Positions 18,860 through 31,571 of a stretch of 64,000 nucleotides of DNA are shown one piece after another. How positions within the stretch are numbered: position 1 is the stretch's first letter; every line of letters begins with the position of its first letter. Under the pieces are notes generated by a model, which worked only from the letters and a program-made list of their open reading frames with translations, was not told the origin of the DNA and made no database searches. Origin of the DNA: Desulfurivibrio dismutans (lineage in GTDB: Bacteria > Desulfobacterota > Desulfobulbia > Desulfobulbales > Desulfurivibrionaceae); the NCBI RefSeq assembly GCF_029210385.1, contig NZ_JARGDQ010000010.1:1-64000 (forward strand), given 5' to 3'. The position numbers and the translations under genes were made by a program.

Positions 18860-19387
18860 TCACTGAATCGAAGAGATCAGCGGTTCAACTTCGGCAGTGC
18901 CCAGGATATAGTCGATATTAAGCAGGATTTTAACTTTGCCCGCCAACTTGGCCATGCCCATGATGTGGTCGGTATCGTTAAAGTTGGCGACTCCCAGGTT
19001 GGGGGGCGGTTCGATATTTTCTTCCTTGATGTACAAAACCTCCGAAACCGAATCCACCACCAGCCCCACCACCATTTTTTTGCTTTGCCCGTGGTTGATC
19101 TCCACCACGATGATGCAGGTTCGTTGGGTGTTGTCACCTTGGTTTAGATCAAATTTCTGTCGCAGGTCGATTACCGGTACCACCTTACCCCTGAGATTGA
19201 CAACCCCTCTCATGTAATCAGGGGATTGGGGGATGCCGGTGATGGGCATCAGGCCGATGATTTCCCGGACCTGGAGAATGTCTATACCGTAATCTTCCCG
19301 GTCCAGGCTGAAGGTTAGAAATTTACCGTCATTGTTTTGATGCAGGGCATTCTGACTGGCTGAGTGGTTACTTTCTGTAAATGTCAT
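18860..19387 (-). CDS. cheW: CheW-like chemotaxis coupling protein
   Basis: 175-residue soluble CheW domain (FLTFSLDREDYGIDILQVREIIG ... RGVVNLRGKVVPVIDLR ... VVDSVSEVL) that normally bridges chemoreceptors and CheA. It overlaps by four bases (ATGA) with the upstream chemoreceptor, which lacks the CheW-binding hairpin tip. No CheA is encoded in the window. The paralogue at 21530 is clearly related. Confidence 0.93.
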   Translation of the reverse strand: MTFTESNHSASQNALHQNNDGKFLTFSLDREDYGIDILQVREIIGLMPITGIPQSPDYMRGVVNLRGKVVPVIDLRQKFDLNQGDNTQRTCIIVVEINHGQSKKMVVGLVVDSVSEVLYIKEENIEPPPNLGVANFNDTDHIMGMAKLAGKVKILLNIDYILGTAEVEPLISSIQ

Positions 19388-20328
19388 GACAATAACTCCT
19401 TGGGGTCTTGATTGTTCTCCTGTTTCCGGCGCTCGACGGTAAGCTGGTGCTGCACGGCAGCCTGCCGGTCCCGGGCTTTTTTCCCTTCCACCAGGGTCAT
19501 CAGCTCAGCGACAAAGTCGGTCATCTGGTGGGCCATGGCGGAAAGCTCTTCGGCCGCGGCGGCGGACTCTTCGGCATTGGCGGCGGAGCGCTGCACCACG
19601 GTGTCCATTTCGTTCATGGCGGCGTCGTGTAGGCCCTGGCCGATTCGGGTCAGGGGGCGGGAAATTGAACGGGTAATGATGAAGGCGGCTAAAATGCCCA
19701 GCAGAATTGCCCCGACGCTCAAGCTCAGCACCAGGCTGCGGCCGCCGAAAACCATCTCCTGGGCGAAATTGCCGCCGCTGGTCATCTCCCGTGTCTCGTG
19801 TTCCACCATTGCTGCCACCGCCGCGATCAGTTCGTTCTGGGCCGGTCGGATGGTGTTCAGCAGCATGTTTTGGGCGCCGCTCAATTCTTCATCGGTGGCC
19901 AGATTCAGGTAGGTATTAACCATCTGGTAATATTCATGGTAGTTGTTGCGGGCGCGGCTCAGCACTTCTTGACCTTCCCGGGAGGAGGTGTCTGCTTCGA
20001 AAGCCGCAAATCGTTCCTCAATGGTCCGGTGGGCGGTGTCAATGTGGGCCAGCTCTCCATCACGTTCACCTTCATCAAGGATGTAGATGAGGGGCAGATT
20101 GCGGGCGATGAGGTTGATCTCGTCAATCACCTCGTTGGCTTCCTCGGTTTTGGGAAACCGGACCTCCACCACCTCGTCGATGACCTCCTGCAAGGTGCCC
20201 AGACGCATGGTGGTAAAGATGGCCACCACCGCCAGAAAGACGATGATCAGCCCGAAACCGGTTCCCATTCGGGCCCCTATTCGCATATTTTTGGTTAAGT
20301 CCAATTTGTCGGTAAGTTCGTTCATCAT
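19384..20328 (-). CDS. Chemoreceptor lacking its signalling hairpin (internal deletion)
   Basis: 314 residues: TM1 about 21-43, a four-helix-bundle periplasmic domain, TM2 about 200-220 and the first part of HAMP (TRSISRPLTRIGQGLHDAA). The sequence then jumps directly to [21 protein letters not shown], which in the chemoreceptor at 12769 lies in the descending arm near the end of the signalling domain. The whole hairpin with the CheW/CheA-binding tip and methylation segments is missing in frame. AGGAGG precedes ATG 20328 (ATG 20325 also possible). It may be a natural in-frame deletion, a regulatory decoy, or a collapse in assembly. Confidence 0.85.
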   Translation of the reverse strand: MMNELTDKLDLTKNMRIGARMGTGFGLIIVFLAVVAIFTTMRLGTLQEVIDEVVEVRFPKTEEANEVIDEINLIARNLPLIYILDEGERDGELAHIDTAHRTIEERFAAFEADTSSREGQEVLSRARNNYHEYYQMVNTYLNLATDEELSGAQNMLLNTIRPAQNELIAAVAAMVEHETREMTSGGNFAQEMVFGGRSLVLSLSVGAILLGILAAFIITRSISRPLTRIGQGLHDAAMNEMDTVVQRSAANAEESAAAAEELSAMAHQMTDFVAELMTLVEGKKARDRQAAVQHQLTVERRKQENNQDPKELLS

Positions 20329-20796
20329 GTTCCTCCTTGCAGATGGACTACGGCCATCATCTGCTCAAGGCCGTAGAGGTAAATTGGATATCTGTCGTTG
20401 ACGTTAAATAATTACCAGGCTGCCCGTCCATGCCCTTAACCACGTATTGTGATAGGCCAATGGTACGTACGGACCCATGGGTAGTTTTTTCTGGTTGTGG
20501 TAGGTGTTTTTACGTATGGTTTGTGTGATTTATTGTTTTTTGGTCGTTTTTGGTGGTGGTTCCTGGGTATGATCGCGTTGGTTTGGCCCTGTATATCTTG
20601 ACTTTTTTCGTTAAAACTGATTACTGGAACATCACTCATTCAGTGGTGCGACTGTGTTTAAAGGGGTTTACCTGCGGACGGATGGGGCTGTGTGGCAAAT
20701 GGGGGAAATCGAGCTTGTGGTGGGGGGAGTTTGCGAATAACCGCGTGAGCCCTGATAGACGCCAAGGTCCAGGCTGAACGGGCTTGAGGGCCTTTG
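20329..20796. other. Divergent intergenic region, chemoreceptor / LuxR-type regulator
   Basis: 468 bp without a supported gene. Near the chemoreceptor there is a leader hairpin CTACGGCC-N13-GGCCGTAG (about 20346-20375). From about 20480 to 20590 the plus strand is strikingly G+T rich and nearly free of C. TTGACT at about 20599 is a possible -35 without a good -10. Short open frames here have no ribosome site or homology. Confidence 0.45.
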
Positions 20797-21477
20797 ATGA
20801 TGAAAAAGAAGATCAGGCTGGTGGCAGCCGATAGTCAACCCTTGATCCTGGAAGGGATCAGACGAATGGTGGCCAGTCAGGCCGACCTGGAAATGGTTGG
20901 CGGGGCGGCCGACGGCCGGGAGTTGCTGCGGCTGGTCAAAAAACTGAAGCCGGATTTGGTTCTCCTGGATCTTTCCATGCCCAATCTGGACGGCCTGGAG
21001 GCTCTGCCCCTGCTCAAGGAAGCGTTGCCCACGGTCGGAGTGGTTGTGCTTTCCACGCACGACAAGGAAACTTACGTCCAGCAGACATTGGCCGCCGGTG
21101 CCCTGGGGTATGTCCTTAAGACCGACAGTGACGCTAGAGTTCTTGAGGCCCTGCGCCTGACCGCCGCCGGGCAGTATTTTATCAGTCCATCCTTGCGGGA
21201 AGAGGTTATCAAAACGTACCTGAATTCCACCGGACGGGAGGAGGTCCCGGAAACCTCCGCCTATGACACCCTGACGGCCCGCGAACAGCAGGTGTTCCGG
21301 CTGGTGGTGGGGGGCCGTATCAGCAGGGAAATTGCCGCCACCCTTGGCATCAGCCCACGAACGGTGGAAAAACACCGGGCCAACATTATCCGCAAACTGG
21401 AAGTGCGTGATACTTCGGCCATGATCCGCTACGCCATCAAGGTCGGGGTGGTGGACCCCGATCTGTGGGACCATTGA
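20797..21477 (+). CDS. NarL/LuxR-family response regulator
   Basis: 226 residues. The receiver domain (1-120) has phospho-Asp in LVLLDLSMPNLDG and conserved Thr (STHDKE) and Lys (YVLKTDSD). A LuxR-type HTH (about 150-220) carries LTAREQQVFRLVVGGRISREIAATLGISPRTVEKHRANI. TTG 20794, ATG 20797 and ATG 20800 are in frame; ATG 20797 sits best after GAGGG. It is a lone plus-strand gene among minus-strand signalling genes. The cognate kinase is not identified; the PAS kinase at 22088 is the nearest without a receiver. Confidence 0.9.
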   Translation: MMKKKIRLVAADSQPLILEGIRRMVASQADLEMVGGAADGRELLRLVKKLKPDLVLLDLSMPNLDGLEALPLLKEALPTVGVVVLSTHDKETYVQQTLAAGALGYVLKTDSDARVLEALRLTAAGQYFISPSLREEVIKTYLNSTGREEVPETSAYDTLTAREQQVFRLVVGGRISREIAATLGISPRTVEKHRANIIRKLEVRDTSAMIRYAIKVGVVDPDLWDH

Positions 21478-23275: not shown

Positions 23276-25596
23276 GTAAATTTTCCGTGATGGTTCAAGA
23301 GGGCTTCCAGTTGTCCGGCGGGCAGGGCCCGGGCGAAGATCCAGCCCTGGTAAGAGGTGCAGTGGTGCCGGTGGAGAAATTCCAGTTGCTCTTCGCTCTC
23401 CACCCCTTCGGCCACCGCTTCCAGGTTCATGCTGGCGGCCAGGCCCAGCACCGCCTTGACGATGATGCGGTTGCTTTCATCCAGGGTAAGGTCGCTGATG
23501 AAGCTGCGGTCGATTTTGAGCTGGCTGATGGGCAGCGATTTCAGGTAGGCCAGGGAGGAATGGCCGGTGCCGAAATCATCCAGGGCCAGGCTCAGGCCCA
23601 ACTCGCTTAGGCTGTGGAGTTGGCGGGAGGCGGCGTTGATGTTGTCCATGGCCGCCGTTTCGGTGATTTCCAACTCCAGCCGGTGGGCCGGGGCGCCGGT
23701 GGCGGCCAGGATGTTGGCCAGGCGGTTGACCAAATCCGGCTGGCGGAACTGCTGGGGCGAGAGGTTGACCGCCATTTTCAGCTCCCGCCCGGCGGCGTGC
23801 CAGTCCGCCAGTTGCCGACAAGCGGTGTGCAGCACCCAGTCACCCAGGGGGACGATAAGGCCGGTGGCCTCGGCCATGGGGATGAAACGGTCGGGTCCGA
23901 CCTGGCCCAGCTCCTCGTCGTGCCAGCGCAGCAGGGCTTCCACCCCGATGATCCGGCCGTCGGCCACCGCCACCTTGGGCTGGTAGTGCAGTTCCAACCG
24001 GTTTTGCTCCAGGGCCGTTTTAAGTTTGTGGTGCAGCACCAGGTCGTCCTGGTGGCGGCGGTTGAGTTCCCGGGCGTAAAATGAATAGGTGCCGCGGCCG
24101 GCCTTTTTGGCCTGGTACATGGCCATTTCCACGTGGCGCAGCAGGGTTTTGTCATCATCGCCGTCGTCGGGGAAGCAGGCGATGCCGGTGCTGCCACTGA
24201 TTAAGATGTTCGGCGTGCTGTCGGTGTGGACGGGGGTTTCCAGGGCGGCCAAAAGCTGCCGGGCCACTTCGGCGCTTTCCCGGCATTCCTTGATGTTCGG
24301 CAGCAGGATGACGAATTCGTCGCCACTGAAGCGGCCTACGGTGCCGTCGCCGTCGGCCAGGGTTTCTTGCAGGCGCCGGGCGATAACCCGCAGCACCTCG
24401 TCGCCGGCGGCATGGCCGAAGTTGTTGTTGATCGCCTTGAAGTTATCCAGATCCAACTGCAGTACCGCCACCGGCCGTTCTTCTTTGGCGGCCCGGTGCA
24501 CCGCCTGGCGCAGGCGGTCCTGGAACAGCTCGCGGTTGGGCAGGCCGGTGAGCCGGTCGTGGGTGGCCTGGTGACGCAGTTGCTCCATGGCCTGGGTCAC
24601 TTCCCGTTCAGCCTTACGGGTGACGGTGTAAAGCAGGGTCAACAGGGCACCCAGCAGGATGGCCGCCATGGCCAGATTGGCGATGACGGTTTGCCGGAAG
24701 GCACCCATCAAGGCGGTGGCGTCGTAAAGAATCACCAGGTCGGCCACGTCGCGGCCGGCGGCGTCGTGCTGATGGATGATCCCGCCCCATAAGCGTTCAT
24801 TGCGATGGGGCAAAAAGAGCTTGGCTGGGCCGTCAAAGTCATTGTGGCCGGTGCGCAACCACTTTTGCAGGCCGGCGGGCAGCCGGGAAGCGGTCTGATG
24901 GGCAATGACCAGGTCGGGATAGTCGTCCCAGTTGCCGCTGAAGGCGAACTTTTCCCGGCCGGCGGTGAAATTCTCCTGGCTGGTGTATTCCTTGCGCAGC
25001 ACGCTGACCATTTGCACCTGTAAAATATTGGCCATTTCCTGTAGCAGGTGTTCAGTTTCCATGCCAAGCTCAATGAAGCCCAGCAACTCGTCGCCATCGT
25101 ACCAAGGGATGACGTAGCGCAGGGTCAGGGTGGCCGAGGAACCGAGTTCCAGGCCGTGGGCGGCTTGGCCGGTGGTGGCGGCCTGGAGCATGGTATGGCG
25201 GTTGATGGTGCCGCCGGTTTTGCTCGGATTGTACGGGCGCAGAAAGACCGACCGGTCCGGCTCCACCAGGTAGAAATGAGTGATTTTGAAATCCTCGAGC
25301 ATGGCGGCGGCCAGGGGTGCGGTCAAATGCAGCAGCAGTTCCCGGTCGCGGCGGCCCCAGGCGGCAGTCAGTTCGAGGTTTCGGCTCAGGTGCTTGGCGT
25401 GGGCCTGCAGGATCCGGGTCTGCTGGCTAAGCAGGTGGGTCCGGTAGTCACGGCCCTGCTCCATGAGCCGGGACATGCTGGCCCGCGATTGGCTTTTGGC
25501 CAACTGGTACTGGAAAAAACCCCAGAACACCAGGCCCAGCAGAATGGCGATGGCCATGGGGGTCAGAATCCAGGTTTTGAAACGGGCGACGGACAT
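23272..25596 (-). CDS. Membrane GGDEF-EAL c-di-GMP protein with Cache-like sensor
   Basis: 774 residues. TM1 is about 12-30, a periplasmic Cache-like sensor about 40-290, TM2 about 302-325. The GGDEF domain has the slightly altered motif RFSGDEF. The EAL domain (about 520-770) retains EALLRW, ELEITETA, LDDFGTGHSS and LKIDRSFI, so the phosphodiesterase is probably active. Cyclase activity is possible because SGDEF variants can function. Coupled by a four-base overlap to the PAS kinase and preceded by the STAS gene. Confidence 0.92.
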   Translation of the reverse strand: MSVARFKTWILTPMAIAILLGLVFWGFFQYQLAKSQSRASMSRLMEQGRDYRTHLLSQQTRILQAHAKHLSRNLELTAAWGRRDRELLLHLTAPLAAAMLEDFKITHFYLVEPDRSVFLRPYNPSKTGGTINRHTMLQAATTGQAAHGLELGSSATLTLRYVIPWYDGDELLGFIELGMETEHLLQEMANILQVQMVSVLRKEYTSQENFTAGREKFAFSGNWDDYPDLVIAHQTASRLPAGLQKWLRTGHNDFDGPAKLFLPHRNERLWGGIIHQHDAAGRDVADLVILYDATALMGAFRQTVIANLAMAAILLGALLTLLYTVTRKAEREVTQAMEQLRHQATHDRLTGLPNRELFQDRLRQAVHRAAKEERPVAVLQLDLDNFKAINNNFGHAAGDEVLRVIARRLQETLADGDGTVGRFSGDEFVILLPNIKECRESAEVARQLLAALETPVHTDSTPNILISGSTGIACFPDDGDDDKTLLRHVEMAMYQAKKAGRGTYSFYARELNRRHQDDLVLHHKLKTALEQNRLELHYQPKVAVADGRIIGVEALLRWHDEELGQVGPDRFIPMAEATGLIVPLGDWVLHTACRQLADWHAAGRELKMAVNLSPQQFRQPDLVNRLANILAATGAPAHRLELEITETAAMDNINAASRQLHSLSELGLSLALDDFGTGHSSLAYLKSLPISQLKIDRSFISDLTLDESNRIIVKAVLGLAASMNLEAVAEGVESEEQLEFLHRHHCTSYQGWIFARALPAGQLEALLNHHGKFT

Positions 25597-25610
25597 TGGC
25601 GGATTCCTCT

Positions 25611-25931
25611 TCAGGCCGTAAATTCCTGGCCGGCCACCCGGAACAGGGTGTGGAACTCCAGTTCGTTGAAAAGGTTAAAAATGGGATCAGGCAGGTTAAC
25701 CACAGCCAGATTGCCGCCGGAATTGGCCAACCATTTGTAGAAGAGCAGGAGTTTACCGATCCCGGCGCTGCCCACCCGCCCAACACCGGCAAAGTCGAGT
25801 TCCACCTCGCGGATATCGGCCAGGTCCAGGCTGCGGAAGTGGTCCCGCAGGCGGACAGCGTTTTTCTCGTCCATGGTGCCTTGCAGAATGATTCTGATCT
25901 GGTTGCCTTTGCGAAGCGTACTGATTTCCAT
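25611..25931 (-). CDS. STAS-domain anti-sigma-factor-antagonist-like protein
   Basis: 106 residues, a single STAS domain. The usual DSxG phosphorylation motif reads GSAGIG with Ser55, so phosphorylation may be retained although the preceding Asp is missing. ATG 25931 follows AGGAGG at good spacing; the frame extends upstream without support. First gene of the four-gene operon, about 43 bases after the start predicted for the sigma-54 promoter. No partner switch kinase or phosphatase adjoins it; coupling to the c-di-GMP enzyme is inferred. Confidence 0.88.
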   Translation of the reverse strand: MEISTLRKGNQIRIILQGTMDEKNAVRLRDHFRSLDLADIREVELDFAGVGRVGSAGIGKLLLFYKWLANSGGNLAVVNLPDPIFNLFNELEFHTLFRVAGQEFTA

Positions 25932-25984
25932 GGCGGTTCCTCCTGGGTAAGTTGATTCGAATGGCTTGCTTGGCAAAGGAAACC

Positions 25985-26000
25985 TGCAAGGGGTGTGCCA
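25985..26000 (-). promoter_or_regulatory. Sigma-54 (-24/-12) promoter of the STAS/c-di-GMP/CheW operon
   Basis: Minus-strand TGGCAC-ACCCC-TTGCA is an exact match to the -24/-12 consensus (TGGCAC-N5-TTGCA), with GG and GC ten bases apart. It lies 54 bp upstream of the STAS ATG. Two inverted repeats 100-150 bp further upstream fit enhancer sites. Confidence 0.85.
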
Positions 26001-26105
26001 TGGTAGCAAAGAAATTATTTTTTCTAAAAAAGAATATAATTACAGTAAGATAATAAAATAACGGGGAGCTGCCGGGGGGAACTGAGTGGTGGTTGCAAGA
26101 GGGTT

Positions 26106-26143
26106 TTGGCATGGGGTGCCAGGCTTTGGCATTTCATGCCAAA
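26106..26143 (-). promoter_or_regulatory. Tandem inverted repeats, probable sigma-54 enhancer (UAS)
   Basis: TTGGCA-N5-TGCCAG (26106-26122) and TTTGGCA-N5-TGCCAAA (26125-26143) lie in tandem, and a further half-site TTTGGC follows at 26145-26150. Centre spacing is about two helical turns. They lie roughly 140 and 160 bp upstream of the predicted sigma-54 start, the usual position for NtrC-family activator sites. Confidence 0.65.
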
Positions 26144-26242
26144 ATTTGGCGTGAAAGGACAACGGAGTAGTACTTGCGGCACAACCCTGCCCTGCATCAT
26201 GGTACTGTTTGTTGCCGTTCCTTTGGGGGAACCCGCAAAAGA

Positions 26243-26286
26243 CCCGCCGCCGCAAGGGGTGCTTGCGCGGCGGCGGGTTTTTTTTT
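26243..26286. terminator. Strong terminator between TA pair and enhancer region
   Basis: CCCGCCGCCGC (26243-26253) pairs perfectly with GCGGCGGCGGG (26267-26277). Nine T follow on the plus strand and TCTTTT on the minus strand. On the minus strand it would end toxin-antitoxin transcripts before the sigma-54 control region. Confidence 0.85.
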
Positions 26287-26333
26287 GCGGTGCGGTCGCC
26301 ACTCCTCGCCGCCTCGCTTTGAGGTGCTCGGGG

Positions 26334-26705
26334 TTATACGAGATCGTCGATTGATACGCGAAGAATGGCGGCGATGCGCTTGAGCGTATCAATGCCGCCC
26401 TCGCGGGCACCGGTCTCAATCTGCGATAGATAGGAGGTGCTGATGCTTGCCCCGGCCGCAAGGTCGCGAGCGGATACCCCCCGATACTCGCGCCAGACCC
26501 GGATCTTGTTTTCCCCATCAAGGATGCGGTTCGCCATTTCGGCGGGGAGCAACTCCTCTTCGCCCGCCGCCAGCCGACGCTGAAAATGGTGAATCGTCGC
26601 GACGTCTTCGCGATCTTCGATGGTGTCGAGCATGGCCAGGTAATCGGCCTCGGGGATTACAACCAGGCGCTCTCCCCCGGTGGTGGTGATGATCTGTTCG
26701 TGCAT
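26334..26705 (-). CDS. Antitoxin: Phd-like N-terminus plus XRE HTH
   Basis: 123 residues. The N-terminal part (ERLVVIPEADYLAMLDTIEDREDV) resembles the Phd/YefM-type segment. The C-terminal part (about 65-122) is an XRE helix-turn-helix (SARDLAAGASISTSYLSQIETGAREGGIDTLKRIAAIL) that should bind the operon promoter. It lies 12 bp after the RelE-type toxin gene on the same strand; GGAG precedes the ATG. Toxin-first order is typical of HigBA-like pairs. The composite architecture is inferred from motifs. Confidence 0.85.
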   Translation of the reverse strand: MHEQIITTTGGERLVVIPEADYLAMLDTIEDREDVATIHHFQRRLAAGEEELLPAEMANRILDGENKIRVWREYRGVSARDLAAGASISTSYLSQIETGAREGGIDTLKRIAAILRVSIDDLV

Positions 26706-26717
26706 GATCGTCTGCTC

Positions 26718-26972
26718 CTAATCATAGGCGACGCCACGCGGCGCGACCTTAATGACGGCGATGACTTCGCCGGTTTCCGAAAAAATAACCCGCCAGTCGC
26801 CAACGCGGAGACGAAGGTAACCAGCAGCCCCTTTCAACGCCTTGATATTGTTGGCCAAACTCGCCGGCTTCGCGGCATATTGCTCGATCTTGGCTCGAAC
26901 CAAACGGGCGGCGTCGGCGGGCATTCGACTCAACGTCTTCAAAGCATCCCGGCTGTAGGTGATTTTTTTCAT
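26718..26972 (-). CDS. RelE/ParE-family toxin
   Basis: 84-residue RelE-fold protein. MKKITYSRDALKTLSRMPA opens the fold, and GYLRLRVGDWRVIF followed by VIKVAPRG is the catalytic/ribosome-binding region with conserved Arg residues. It is probably a ribosome-dependent mRNA interferase. ATG 26972 is only seven bases from a strong -10, so the mRNA is leaderless or nearly so. Upstream in-frame codons are therefore not used as starts. Confidence 0.88.
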   Translation of the reverse strand: MKKITYSRDALKTLSRMPADAARLVRAKIEQYAAKPASLANNIKALKGAAGYLRLRVGDWRVIFSETGEVIAVIKVAPRGVAYD

Positions 26973-26979
26973 CTCGATA

Positions 26980-27008
26980 ATATTAGCTAACAGCCAACAT
27001 GAAGTCAA
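26980..27008 (-). promoter_or_regulatory. Promoter of the RelE/HTH toxin-antitoxin pair
   Basis: Minus-strand TTGACT (27003-27008), 17-bp spacer, TAATAT (26980-26985). The toxin ATG starts seven bases after the -10. Confidence 0.8.
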
Positions 27009-27091
27009 GAAATATAGTTGCTATCAGCCATCACTACCCGAAGATTTCTCTGTCACCGCGTGCTGGGATTGCCCCCGTCATCACGGCTCGG

Positions 27092-27175
27092 TTACCGTTC
27101 CCCGCCGCCGTTTTTGGCGTTCTGTTGGGTCATGGAGGAGATTTCTTCCAGGGGGGCGGAGGTTTCCTCACTTTG
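27092..27175 (-). pseudogene. Remnant of a chemoreceptor signalling domain
   Basis: About 27 codons in a 308-bp gene-free gap (26973-27280) translate to SEETSAPLEEISSMTQQNAKN, ending in GGGER and a stop. This matches the ascending arm of the intact chemoreceptors ([14 protein letters not shown] at 12769, [14 protein letters not shown] at 47948). No start, membrane segment or hairpin tip remains. The rest of the gap shows nothing recognisable. Confidence 0.75.
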
Positions 27176-27280
27176 GCGTCGGATGCGAACAATGTGGCAG
27201 TCAGAGGGGCCGGTTAAGGGGCATAATTCGGCGGGTTCTCGTGGCCAGGCACTTTCGCGGGTGGTGGTAGCAAAAATATC

Positions 27281-28240
27281 TTATTTAAGCCGGTGCTTGC
27301 GCAGCAGCCGGTAGAGCTGGGACAGGGACAGACCGGAGAGGGCGCAGGCCTGTTGCATGTCCTTGTTGGTCCGGCTCAGCAAGGCGGCAAGATAATCCTG
27401 TTCCAGTTCTTTGATGGCCGCCTCGCGGGCCGCCTGCAGCCCTGGCAGCGGTTGGCCGTCGGCAAAACGCCGGCCGTTCGGCTCGGCGGCGGTTCGATCG
27501 GGCGGAGCCGACAAGGTTGCCGAGGTTGACGGGGATGCCGAGGATGACGAGGATGACGGGGATGACGGGGATGACGGGGTCGGCGGGGATGGGGAAACCG
27601 ACGAGGCGGCGGCCGGATAGAGCGGCGCCTCGGTGGCCTGATGTGGCCTGTGCTGGTGAGTTAGGGACCGGGCTTGATCCTGGCCGGGCAAAAGATTGTC
27701 GGAGGCGGCCCCCGCTTCCATTCGGCAATCATTCTGTACCTCGAGGGACTTGGCCCTGGCCCGGATCTCGGCGGGCAGATGAATGCTGTAAAGGATGGAT
27801 TCATCACCGGCGTGGGCAAAAGCGGTGGTGATGACGTTAATCAACTCCCGGACGTTGCCCGGCCAGTCGTATTGCTGCAGGGTGGCCAGAAACTGGGGGC
27901 AGAGACCCTTCACCGGCCGTTGGTTGTAGCGACACAGCTTGGCCAGATGGGCCATGGCCAGGTCGATCACATCCTCGCCCCGCTCCCGCAGGGGCGGCAG
28001 TTGGCAGTTGAAACCCCGCAGGCGGAAGAGCAGATCCTGGCGAAAGGTTTTATGGGCCACCATCTCTTCCAGGTCGCGGTTGGTGGCGGCCACCAGGCGG
28101 AAGTTGCTGACCCGTTCCTTGGCGCCGCCCACCGGGCGAAAGCGCTGTTCCTGCAGCACCCGCAGGAAAACCTTTTGTGCCGCAAGGGGCATTTCCCCCA
28201 CCTCGTCAAGAAAGAGGGTGCCCTGATGGGCCTGGGCCAA
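27281..28240 (-). pseudogene. NtrC-family regulator, 3' part after frameshift (AAA+ C-terminal half and Fis HTH)
   Basis: Continues the AAA+ domain from AQAHQGTLFLDEVGEMPLAAQ (Walker B) through ATNRDL, RQDLLFRLRGF, PLRERGEDV and the WPGNVRELINV R-finger region. A long Ser/Pro/Ala linker encoded by 9-bp repeats follows, then a C-terminal Fis-type HTH (MQQACALSGLSLSQLYRLLRKHRLK). It lacks its own start and ribosome site. Deleting one base near 28250 fuses it in frame to the 28206-28913 part. As sequenced the product is split. Confidence 0.82.
27522..27593. repeat. 9-bp tandem repeat (8 units) in the NtrC-family linker
   Basis: Eight tandem 9-bp units of the type GGGGATGAC / GAGGATGAC; the central four are nearly identical. 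They encode a Ser/Pro-rich linker on the minus strand. Unit length is a multiple of three, so copy-number change alters linker length without breaking the frame. Confidence 0.8.
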
Positions 28241-28913
28241 CCAGCCCGCTGCGGCTCTGGTTGGCGCCGGTGAAGGTGCCCTTTTCGTGGCCGAACAGGA
28301 TGCTTTCCACCAGGGTGGGGGGCAGGGAGGCGCAGTCCACGATGACGAAGTTGTGGCCGGCCCGTTGGGAGTTTTCGTGGATCAGCCGGGCAAAGAGTTC
28401 CTTGCCGGTGCCGGTCTCACCGGTGATCAGCACCGGGGCATCGGTGGCCGCCGCCTTGCCGGCCAGTTCCAGGCACTGGTTGAGAGCCGGACTTTTACCG
28501 ATAATTTCCCCCCGGTGCAGGGCTTTAGCGGCGTTCTGGCCGTTTTTACGGCGGCGGTACTGCAAGGCCCGGTTCAGCGACAGTTCCACCGATTCCACCG
28601 ACAACGGCTTGCGGACGTAATCCCAGGCGCCGTTGTGGATGGCCTGGGAAGCGCCGGCGCTGGAGCCCTCGCCGGTGATGATGATCACCTCGGGAGCGGT
28701 TTCATGGTTGCGGATGGCGCCGATGGCCTCCAGGCCGCTGCCGTCGGGCAGGTTGACATCGAGAAAGACCAGATCGGGCCGGGCCTGCTCCAGTTTACCC
28801 ATGGCCTCCTGCAGGCGCAGGGCCACCACCGCTTCGTGTCCCTGGGAAGAGACGAAGTCGGAGAGCACGCTGCAGATCATCGGGTCGTCGTCAACCACCA
28901 AAATTCGAGCCAT
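28206..28913 (-). pseudogene. NtrC-family response regulator, 5' part (receiver and AAA+ N-terminal half)
   Basis: The receiver (1-120) has DDDP, phospho-Asp in LVFLDVNLPDG, and KP near 105. The sigma-54 AAA+ domain follows with Walker A GETGTGKE and loop L1 GTFTGA (canonical GAFTGA). Reading then leaves the family frame at SRSGLVGPG, where SRAGWLAQAHQGTL is expected: one extra base near 28250. ATG 28913 is favoured; GGGGG lies eight bases upstream. It lies 60 bp after the MASE3 hybrid kinase gene, so the two probably form a kinase-regulator pair. Confidence 0.82.
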
Positions 28914-28943
28914 TAACATTTCCCCCAAATGTCGATATGCGAT

Positions 28944-28973: not shown

Positions 28974-31571
28974 TTATTGTTCATGGAAGCCGTTGCCCCG
29001 GTGCAGCTGCCGGTTATCCAGCACCCGGCGGATTTCCGTGGCCAGTACCTCCTGGCGTAAGGGCTTCATGATCAGGGCCGAGATGCCCATGGCCACCGCC
29101 GCCGCCTCGTCGATGCGGCTGCTGTAGCCGGTGCAGAGAATAATCGGCAGATCCTCCCGGATCACCTTGGCGGCGGCGGCCAGTTCGGTGCCCTTGAGCT
29201 TGGGCATGCTGTAGTCGGTGAGCAGCAGATCGAAGTTTTGGCCCTGCTGTTGGCGCAGCATTTCCAGGGCCTCGATGCCGTCATCGGCGGTGGTGAGCCG
29301 GTAGCCGATGCCGGTAAGCCCCGCCACGGCGGCCTCCAGCACCGCCGGTTCGTCGTCCACCAGCAGGATATGCTCACCTTTGCCTTGCGGTATCACCGGA
29401 GAGTCCGGGGTAACATCGACCTCGCCGCCCAGGCCGGGCAGAAAGATTTCAAAGTTGGTTCCCCGGCCGGGAGTGCTGGCCACCATGATGCGGCCGCCAT
29501 GTCGGCTGACAATGCCGTGGACCACCGGCAACCCCATGCCGGTACCCTGGCCCTTTTCCTTGGTGGTGAAGAAGGGGTCGAAGAGCTTGGGCAAATGTTC
29601 CGGTTTGATGCCGCTGCCGGTGTCCTGCACCGTCAGCTTGAGCCAGTGCTGCTCCTGGTCGGCCCGCCGGAGGGCTCCGGGGTGGGAAGCCGCATCTTCC
29701 GAGGTGGCCGGGATCAGGGTGCAGGTGCCGTTTTCGGTGGTGTTCAGGGAAAAGGTCCGGTTCTTACCGCTGATGTCGGCAACTCCTTCTGTTGCTTTTG
29801 GTGTCCTGGGCGGTGGTCCGTCGGCCTCGTCCAGGCTGATGGTCAGGACTCCTTCCTGGTCACCCATGGCATGAATGGCGTTTAAGGAAAGATTCATGAG
29901 TACCTGCAGCAGTTGGGTGGGGTCGGCGGCCAGGCTGTCGCGGTCGGTGTTGATCCGGTACTGCAGGTTGATGTTGGCCGGCACCACCGACTGCAAAAAC
30001 TTGACCGCCTCCTTGACGATCATGCTCAGCTTCACCAGCATGGGTTCATGCTGGCCCTGGCGGCTGAAATCCAAAATCTGTTTGACCAGGTTGGCGGCCC
30101 GTTCCGCTGCCAGGCGCACCTGCTCCAGGCTGTTGGTCAGTTGCGGGTTATCCCCGGCGTTTCTTAAAGCCAGTTGGGTGTGCATCATGATGGGGGTGAG
30201 AATATTGTTGAAGTCGTGGGCAATACCGCCGGCCATCAGGCCCATGGCACTCATCTTGTCGGTTTGCAGCTCCCGCTCCTCCATCTGCTTGCGCTCGGTG
30301 ACATCCAGCACCGTGCCCATCATCCGCATCGGTTGCCCGGCTTCATCGCGTTCCACCTCCGCCTGTTCGTGCACCCAGCGTTCGTTGCCGTCGGCCAGCA
30401 CCAGGCGATGTTCGATGCTGTAGGGTTGTTTGCCGGCCAAGGCCTCGTTGACCGCCTGTTGTACCGCTTGCCGGTCTTCCGGGTGCACGTAGTTAAGAAA
30501 GGCGTCGTAGCTGGCCCCGAATTCTTGCGGTGCGACCCCGAAAATCCGGTAAACCTCGTCGGACCAGTTCAGGGTGTTGTCGGTGATGTCCCATTCCCAA
30601 CTGCCCAGATGAGCGATGCGTTGCGCCTCAAGCAGGCGGGCGTGACTCTTGCTCAGGGCCTGTTCCGATTCACGTTGTTGCTGTTGAACTTTTTCCAGCA
30701 GGTTGTATGGCCGGTGAATGTTTTCAATGAAAATCGCCCGGTAGAGCAGCAGGTAGCCCGCCACCTTGTACAGATGGCCCAGGAGAATCGGCCCGTCGCT
30801 GATGGTCTGGTAGATGGTGAAAAACAGGCCGCTGGCCGCCAGCAGCAGCAGCGCCGGAGCCAGAAAAACCCTGATGGAGGGCGAAAAACGATGCCGGTAG
30901 CGCCACAGCAACGCCAGGGTGAGCAGGTGCAGGACGATAAAGAGCCATTCCAGGGCCACCTTGAAGGTGGTCAGTCCGGTTTCGGGATGATAGGTGGCCG
31001 GTATCCATTCGGGGCGAAAAACGCCGATGAAGCCAAGAATAAAGGTGTAGGTCAGGCAGAGACACAAGGCCGTGCGCCGGCGCGGTTTGCGGTGCGGCCA
31101 GAGCAGGGGGGTGAGGACAAAGGCCAGCAGGGCCGCGGCGGCCAGCAGGCGGGCGCCCAGCCACAGCACCACCGTCTTGTGCATGGTGTTGGGAGTTAAA
31201 AAATCTCCCATGCCGGGGTAGGAGACGGTGTGCAGCAGGTCCAGCATGCCTACCCCGAGAAAGGCGCAGGCCAGGATAATGCCGCCGCCGACACGCTGAC
31301 GGTCCAGGGTATGGTAGCCCACGGCAAAGATCAGCAGGGCGACGGCGATGGCAAAAATTTCGCAGGCGGCGTGCACGGCCAGGTAGACGGGCTCGGACAT
31401 AAAGTCGGGGGGTTGGAACGCCCCCGCCCAGACCAGCACCGCAAAGGCCGCCAGCAGCAGGACCAGCAGATGACCAAAGTGCACCGTTTTACGGTTATCA
31501 TCTGTGATGGCCGGCAAAAAAATCGGCAAACCCTCCTCCTGTTCCCCAGGTTTGACGCAAACTTGTACCAC
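28974..31571 (-). CDS. MASE3-PAS hybrid sensor histidine kinase
   Basis: 865 residues. An N-terminal seven-helix MASE3 membrane sensor (about 30-290, with LLHTVSYPGMGDF and FRPEWIPATYHPETGLT) leads to a PAS_3 domain (about 310-425), HisKA (GGIAHDFNNILTP near 455), HATPase and a C-terminal receiver (about 745-860, LLTDYSMPKLKG). The HATPase holds an unusual insert of about 60 residues between its N box and the G1 box DTGSGI. The start is GTG 31571 with no clear ribosome site, so the first few residues are uncertain. Upstream of the NtrC-family regulator on the same strand. Confidence 0.88.
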   Translation of the reverse strand: MVQVCVKPGEQEEGLPIFLPAITDDNRKTVHFGHLLVLLLAAFAVLVWAGAFQPPDFMSEPVYLAVHAACEIFAIAVALLIFAVGYHTLDRQRVGGGIILACAFLGVGMLDLLHTVSYPGMGDFLTPNTMHKTVVLWLGARLLAAAALLAFVLTPLLWPHRKPRRRTALCLCLTYTFILGFIGVFRPEWIPATYHPETGLTTFKVALEWLFIVLHLLTLALLWRYRHRFSPSIRVFLAPALLLLAASGLFFTIYQTISDGPILLGHLYKVAGYLLLYRAIFIENIHRPYNLLEKVQQQQRESEQALSKSHARLLEAQRIAHLGSWEWDITDNTLNWSDEVYRIFGVAPQEFGASYDAFLNYVHPEDRQAVQQAVNEALAGKQPYSIEHRLVLADGNERWVHEQAEVERDEAGQPMRMMGTVLDVTERKQMEERELQTDKMSAMGLMAGGIAHDFNNILTPIMMHTQLALRNAGDNPQLTNSLEQVRLAAERAANLVKQILDFSRQGQHEPMLVKLSMIVKEAVKFLQSVVPANINLQYRINTDRDSLAADPTQLLQVLMNLSLNAIHAMGDQEGVLTISLDEADGPPPRTPKATEGVADISGKNRTFSLNTTENGTCTLIPATSEDAASHPGALRRADQEQHWLKLTVQDTGSGIKPEHLPKLFDPFFTTKEKGQGTGMGLPVVHGIVSRHGGRIMVASTPGRGTNFEIFLPGLGGEVDVTPDSPVIPQGKGEHILLVDDEPAVLEAAVAGLTGIGYRLTTADDGIEALEMLRQQQGQNFDLLLTDYSMPKLKGTELAAAAKVIREDLPIILCTGYSSRIDEAAAVAMGISALIMKPLRQEVLATEIRRVLDNRQLHRGNGFHEQ

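Follow-up and report, generated by a model that had tools for sequence, protein, structure and literature searches.

The control of a neighbouring operon by a two-component activator of the NtrC type is a kind of switch that is already known. In the accessible text of a study of Clostridiales regulons, bEBP genes adjoin their targets, and the similarity of upstream enhancer sites (UAS) follows that of the DNA-binding domains (PMC6615313), while the accessible text on the sigma-54 regulome of Desulfovibrio vulgaris deals with looping between UAS and promoter (PMC4641369). As far as these texts describe them, linked group I bEBP systems (NtrC/DctD/LuxO type; PMC6615313, PMC4641369) resemble the locus analysed here in that the activator combines an AAA+ domain with a Fis-type HTH, the UAS lies at least 100 bp upstream of a -24/-12 promoter, and the target operon adjoins the activator gene. 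Unlike in those systems, the UAS here is TTGGCA-N5-TGCCAA and the target operon concerns c-di-GMP and chemotaxis. In its main text, PMC4641369 has no TTGGC string, and PMC6615313 has TTGGCA a single time, as part of a sigma-54 promoter consensus and not as a UAS. For LuxO of Vibrio, the available portion of PMC11407668 describes a cooperative pair of sites roughly 100 bp ahead of a sigma-54 promoter, a layout like that of the present locus, and lists Ser, Ile, Tyr, Arg, Lys, and Leu as critical residues in helix 3 of the HTH. Visual comparison matches this helix to the one that reads SLSQLYRLL in the activator described below. The targets of LuxO are small RNA genes, and the letters of its sites differ from those of the TTGGCA dyads. 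Sigma-54 and c-di-GMP also share one circuit in Burkholderia, where, according to the accessible part of PMC5552954, the c-di-GMP effector BerB acts with RpoN on biofilm formation, whereas the present locus is predicted to target c-di-GMP enzymes. Among the open-licence papers searched, no report was found on a TTGGCA UAS or on MASE3 kinases with activators of this kind.

The window, by which we mean the whole 64-kb stretch of DNA analysed, quite probably contains the control DNA of a sigma-54 operon driven by a linked two-component system (Table 1). This reading is favoured because of the sites themselves, their spacing, their conservation beside an orthologous activator, the match between recognition helix and site, and the presence of rpoN.

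Table 1. Features of the predicted control region, its target operon, and the linked regulatory genes.
Feature	Position	Strand	Remarks
LuxR-type regulator	20794-21477	plus	bounds the operon
CheW, 179 aa	21530-22069	minus	last operon gene; Pfam
PAS histidine kinase, 395 aa	22088-23275	minus	Pfam
dCache-GGDEF-EAL protein, 774 aa	23272-25596	minus	Pfam; motifs SGDEF and EALLRW present
STAS-domain protein, 106 aa	25611-25931	minus	first operon gene; Pfam STAS_2 and STAS
Sigma-54 promoter (-24/-12) TGGCACACCCCTTGCA	25985-26000	minus	exact consensus match, 0 mismatches
UAS dyad 2, proximal, CTGGCACCCCATGCCAA	26105-26123	minus	predicted; centre about -140; core TTGGCATGGGGTGCCA at 26106-26121
UAS dyad 1, distal, perfect, TTTGGCATGAAATGCCAAA	26125-26143	minus	predicted; centre about -160; core TTGGCATTTCATGCCA at 26126-26141
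Possible extra UAS half-site TTTGGCGT (plus-strand letters)	26145-26152	minus	read from the sequence
Likely terminator	26241-26287	both	G+C-rich hairpin and T-run on plus, weaker hairpin on minus; between toxin-antitoxin pair and UAS
HTH antitoxin	26334-26705	minus	Pfam; between activator and UAS
ParE-type toxin	26718-26972	minus	Pfam; between activator and UAS
NtrC-family activator, C-terminal part	27281-28240	minus	rest of AAA+, lid, Fis-type HTH with helix SGLSLSQLYRLLRK
Activator HTH domain	27281-27460		intact in frame
NtrC-family activator, N-terminal part	28206-28928	minus	receiver and first half of AAA+, GTFTGA motif
MASE3-PAS-HisKA-HATPase-receiver hybrid kinase	28974-31571	minus	presumed activator partner; Pfam; same gene order in G050

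The first line of evidence is the promoter. The original prediction had placed an exact TGGCAC-N5-TTGCA element 54 bp upstream of the STAS gene; the element (TGGCAC-ACCCC-TTGCA, with the -24 GG and -12 GC at the correct spacing) is confirmed on the minus strand without a mismatch and does precede that gene, while its distance from the ATG at 25931 measures 53 bases. The start of transcription predicted from its position lies near 25974. On both strands of the window, this is the only site with a sigma-54 score of at least 14, and it is the site that has the tandem dyads upstream; it should be noted that the score, also used in the later scans, weights TTGCT the same as TTGCA. When up to two mismatches were allowed, the window contained 67 promoter-like matches against 90.5 expected, which is no excess, and therefore only the exact match is noteworthy. 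The genome to which the window belongs holds 26 copies of TGGCAY-N5-TTGC compared with 5 of a reversed control, and it encodes RpoN (PF04552, G000:C12:101907-102383, E 2.2e-62). A consensus scan of positions 25500-27500 found no sigma-70-like promoter at the STAS gene, its only matches falling at 26979-27008.

The second line of evidence is the enhancer. TTGGCA-N5-TGCCA repeats expected 140-160 bp upstream are present as two dyads, whose centres, counted from the inferred start at 25974, lie 20 bp apart and fall within the span of about 80-200 bp upstream where activator sites are expected. Dyad 1 is a perfect 19-bp dyad (TTTGGCATTTCATGCCAAA, 26125-26143) and the only zero-mismatch match of its pattern in the 2.84-Mb genome. 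Between the promoter and position 26200, the tandem dyad outscores 300 of 300 dinucleotide shuffles. A single TTGGCA-N5-TGCCA occurs seven times in the own genome, three of these at the UAS site, and once in the reversed control; thus, a single dyad is not unique to the UAS site. Recurrence of the same UAS elsewhere in the genome, looked for as the original prediction had proposed, was not found: there is no second tandem pair, and the four other exact dyads are without a nearby sigma-54 site. A wider regulon was accordingly rejected, none of these dyads (L001, L005, L006, and L007) being followed at 70-200 bp by a site with a score of 13 or more. The stretch between the dyads and the promoter is partly A+T-rich. 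Two Rfam matches over the hairpin of the likely terminator were both below the gathering score and were dismissed.

All four genes of the operon are open, and they are separated by fewer than 20 bases or overlap slightly. Judged by its motifs, the GGDEF-EAL protein could make or break c-di-GMP, since SGDEF and EAL are both kept. Within 500 bp upstream of the other STAS homologues scanned, the nearest of which are about 50% identical, no sigma-54 score exceeds 12.5; the operon is therefore not conserved as such, and STAS orthologues were dropped as a comparative guide. A plasmid search with positions 25600-28930 as the query gave no match. Beyond the LuxR-type gene lies an MCP-like gene of 314 aa (19384-20328) with a 4HB sensor domain and without an MCP signalling domain, the C-terminal end of the MCP being joined straight to the membrane-proximal region, as would result from an in-frame deletion of the segment between them.

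The regulatory gene next to the operon is the NtrC-family activator, which had been put about 1.3 kb away; the measured distance from the promoter to the end of its C-terminal half (27281) is about 1.28 kb, and a ParE/HTH toxin-antitoxin (TA) pair lies between the activator gene and the enhancer. By itself, the insertion of this pair need not matter for the switch, because the activator acts in trans. The receiver domain is clear (Response_reg, 85.9 bits), and Sigma54_activat is matched by both parts of the protein (profile positions 1-89 and 90-166), in two frames. The activator is not a single open frame: it breaks directly after the GTFTGA motif, which leaves two possibilities, a defective switch in this strain or an error in the sequence. 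The Fis-type HTH scores just below the Pfam cut-off of 22.0 bits (HTH_8, 21.0 bits, E 2.7e-4) and aligns without gaps to orthologous HTHs. The GAFTGA loop is represented by GTFTGA in this activator and by GSFTNA in that of G050, the genome discussed below; GAFTGA variants, in the available text of PMC6615313, are compatible with activation, the variants concerned being those seen in that study. Between the activator and the TA pair, a short minus-strand fragment at 27095-27175 (SEETSAPLEEISSMTQQNAKNGG) reads like a piece of an MCP signalling domain and is perhaps a trace of rearrangement.

The state of the activator gives rise to the alternative that survives best. The cis elements may be genuine and the switch dead or dying, with a true frameshift, an inserted TA pair, and an operon that is silent or otherwise controlled. 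We consider this a possible, if doubtful, state of affairs, and it is compatible with the proposed wiring. It would account for the broken frame, for the TA pair and the short MCP-like fragment lodged between activator and UAS, and for a nearby MCP without a signalling domain. Nevertheless, the promoter is exact, the distal dyad is perfect, all four operon genes are open, both halves of the activator are otherwise conserved, and one base error in a draft of 33 contigs would give the same picture. The frame break could reflect a genuine lesion or a mistake in the assembly; a recently functional switch is suggested by the perfect dyad, the exact promoter, and the open operon genes. The original claim of an activator-dependent switch is partly supported: conserved geometry, a helix-matched enhancer in G050, and rpoN favour the wiring, whereas the live state in this strain, where the activator is split by a frameshift, is less certain, and control of c-di-GMP and chemotaxis is a prediction.

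The third line of evidence for control by the linked two-component system is the recurrence of the same arrangement in a second lineage. Orthologues of the activator were sought in 58 genomes, including that of the window, and one of them, G050, which belongs to another family of the same taxonomic order, has the same gene arrangement: MASE3 kinase, activator, dyads, sigma-54 promoter, and then MCP and CheW genes. Its two dyads, TTGGCAGGCCATGCCA and TTGGCATGGCGCGCCAA, are 19 bp apart, and the first begins 16 bp past the stop codon of the activator, which leaves no TA pair in between; the promoter TGGCACATAATCTGCT follows downstream. The dyad centres lie at -162 and -143 in G050 compared with -160 and -140 in the window. 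Thus, the same enhancer, in the same place and beside the same activator, precedes different genes of like function in G050. The G050 orthologue (63%) of the GGDEF-EAL protein is encoded on a contig other than that of the G050 activator; there, at L133 3137-7177, its neighbour is a receiver-bearing PAS kinase, and the TTGGCA enhancer is absent.

Among 257 genomes of the order, the tandem pattern was found in four (the window genome, G050, and two others), and the reversed control was found in one. The two others were rejected as further cases: the pattern overlaps a long open frame and has no sigma-54 site of at least 13 near it, the sole such site (13.5) being about 1.2 kb away. The DNA-binding domain of the activator is closest to that of G050 (66%), whereas the AAA+ part is not. 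A tree of the whole C-terminal half joins the window to G050 with support of 0.95, while a tree of the AAA+ part alone joins it not to G050 but to G013 and G022, with support of 0.33.

The layout was then surveyed in 120 relatives of the activator, namely 110 places from the top of a longer match list (mostly best first) and 10 further loci kept out of at least 80 at an identity of 45% or more. Several listed places, including some close to the end of a contig or interrupted by a stop, do not belong to the 110. The 120 include the six members of the query profile and the activator's own paralog on contig C32. Three of the 120 were dropped for having less than 200 bp downstream, so that 117 were analysed. 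The thresholds (a sigma-54 score of 14; both dyads scoring at least 5 with a similarity of at least 8) were chosen after the first cases had been seen. Within 260 bp after the activator, a sigma-54 site of at least 14 was present in 32 of these 117 sampled relatives in the forward direction and in none in reverse, against 0.4 expected from shuffles, and strong tandem dyads stood behind the activator in 13, against 1.0 expected. In an earlier set of 28 orthologues, which overlaps the 120, there were nine forward sites and one reverse, with 0.53 expected. No sigma-54 site of at least 14 was found behind the activator in 85 of the 117 sampled relatives, and no strong tandem dyad in 104; the layout is therefore recurrent, not universal. 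Where a strong tandem enhancer is present, it starts no more than 100 bp past the activator stop in 11 of 13 relatives.

A first gene could be assigned to 30 of the 32 linked promoters, picked as the longest frame, a crude rule by which some are probably wrong. By Pfam, five of the 30 contain dCache, one an MCP signalling domain, and one PilZ, and further ones have roles in uptake or metabolism; 11 belong to one small family (alignment A3). With first genes so mixed, signalling targets are frequent and not exclusive. The A3 proteins are about 125 aa long with a conserved L.PR motif (L251:3182-3568, L250:810-1196, and nine more), and the two members checked had no Pfam match.

The fourth line of evidence is the correspondence between the recognition helix and the letters of the enhancer. 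Among the 118 activators compared, and within the matches listed, the helix SLSQLYRLL is confined to the window and G050, as is a TTGGCA tandem beside the activator. This exclusive sharing of SLSQ and TTGGCA ties the dyads of the window to the activator of the window. Other helices go with other half-sites: SRSR with GTCCTG, SRTR and GRTR with GTTCAC, SQSR with TTCCtG, and SRAR with TGTCTA-like dyads, the last with exceptions such as L341. SRSQ goes with GTCGCA in G013 and G022, where the dyads were seen by eye, a single dyad was scored in G022, and both genomes fail the automatic pair test. In 14 strict cases, the similarity of helices correlated with that of UAS (r 0.50, 0 of 2000 permutations), and in 20 looser cases it did so with r 0.32 (8 of 2000 permutations), common descent being ignored in both comparisons. 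We tentatively suggest that, in this clade, enhancer and recognition helix may have changed together under a fixed layout (kinase, activator, tandem dyads, sigma-54 promoter, operon), two helix positions largely naming the half-site. Just as tentatively, the outer letters might go with position 2 (GTC or TTG for R or L) and the inner letters with position 4 (GCA or a CAC/CTG/CTA-like end for Q or R).

The same correspondence bears on the idea that the C32 paralog, the only other strong match to the activator HTH in the own genome (48%), acts in trans on this enhancer. This activator is an intact frame of 548 codons and is 64% identical over the AAA+ part, which makes it a candidate; nevertheless, its helix is SRSQ and not SLSQ, and the SRSQ activators with a visible UAS, those of G013 and G022, sit by GTCGCA-type dyads. 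We regard its use of this enhancer as improbable. The paralog forms a kinase-activator pair of its own (L101, G000:C32:1-14000), followed by a membrane sensor gene, and no sigma-54 site or dyads are visible behind that pair. Finally, it is highly improbable that the dyads are operators of another regulator, for example the adjoining HTH antitoxin, whose gene ends about 190 bp away, and lie upstream of the promoter by accident, because the sigma-70-like promoter of the TA pair (26979-27008) is far from the dyads and because G050 has the same dyads at the same spacing beside the orthologous activator without a TA pair between.

In the proposed circuit, the MASE3 hybrid kinase (28974-31571) would phosphorylate the NtrC-family activator (28928-27281), as expected from the biochemistry of the family, and the Fis-type HTH of the activator would bind the two TTGGCA-N5-TGCCA dyads. 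By the same analogy, a loop in the intervening, partly A+T-rich stretch would bring the activator oligomer to RpoN polymerase at 25985-26000, where ATP hydrolysis by the oligomer would open the polymerase complex. The resulting transcript would carry the STAS protein, the GGDEF-EAL enzyme, the PAS kinase, and CheW. The proposed wiring is complete and open to testing, and its target operon brings together c-di-GMP turnover, a histidine kinase, and chemotaxis coupling. If enhancer and helix have indeed changed together, each linked kinase-activator pair would own a private enhancer, and private enhancers would allow many sigma-54 switches to run in parallel in one cell without cross-talk. The relatives constitute a natural series, in which the letters of the enhancer and the residues of the helix covary at similar geometry, and which offers a direct test of site choice by the Fis-type HTHs of enhancer-binding proteins.
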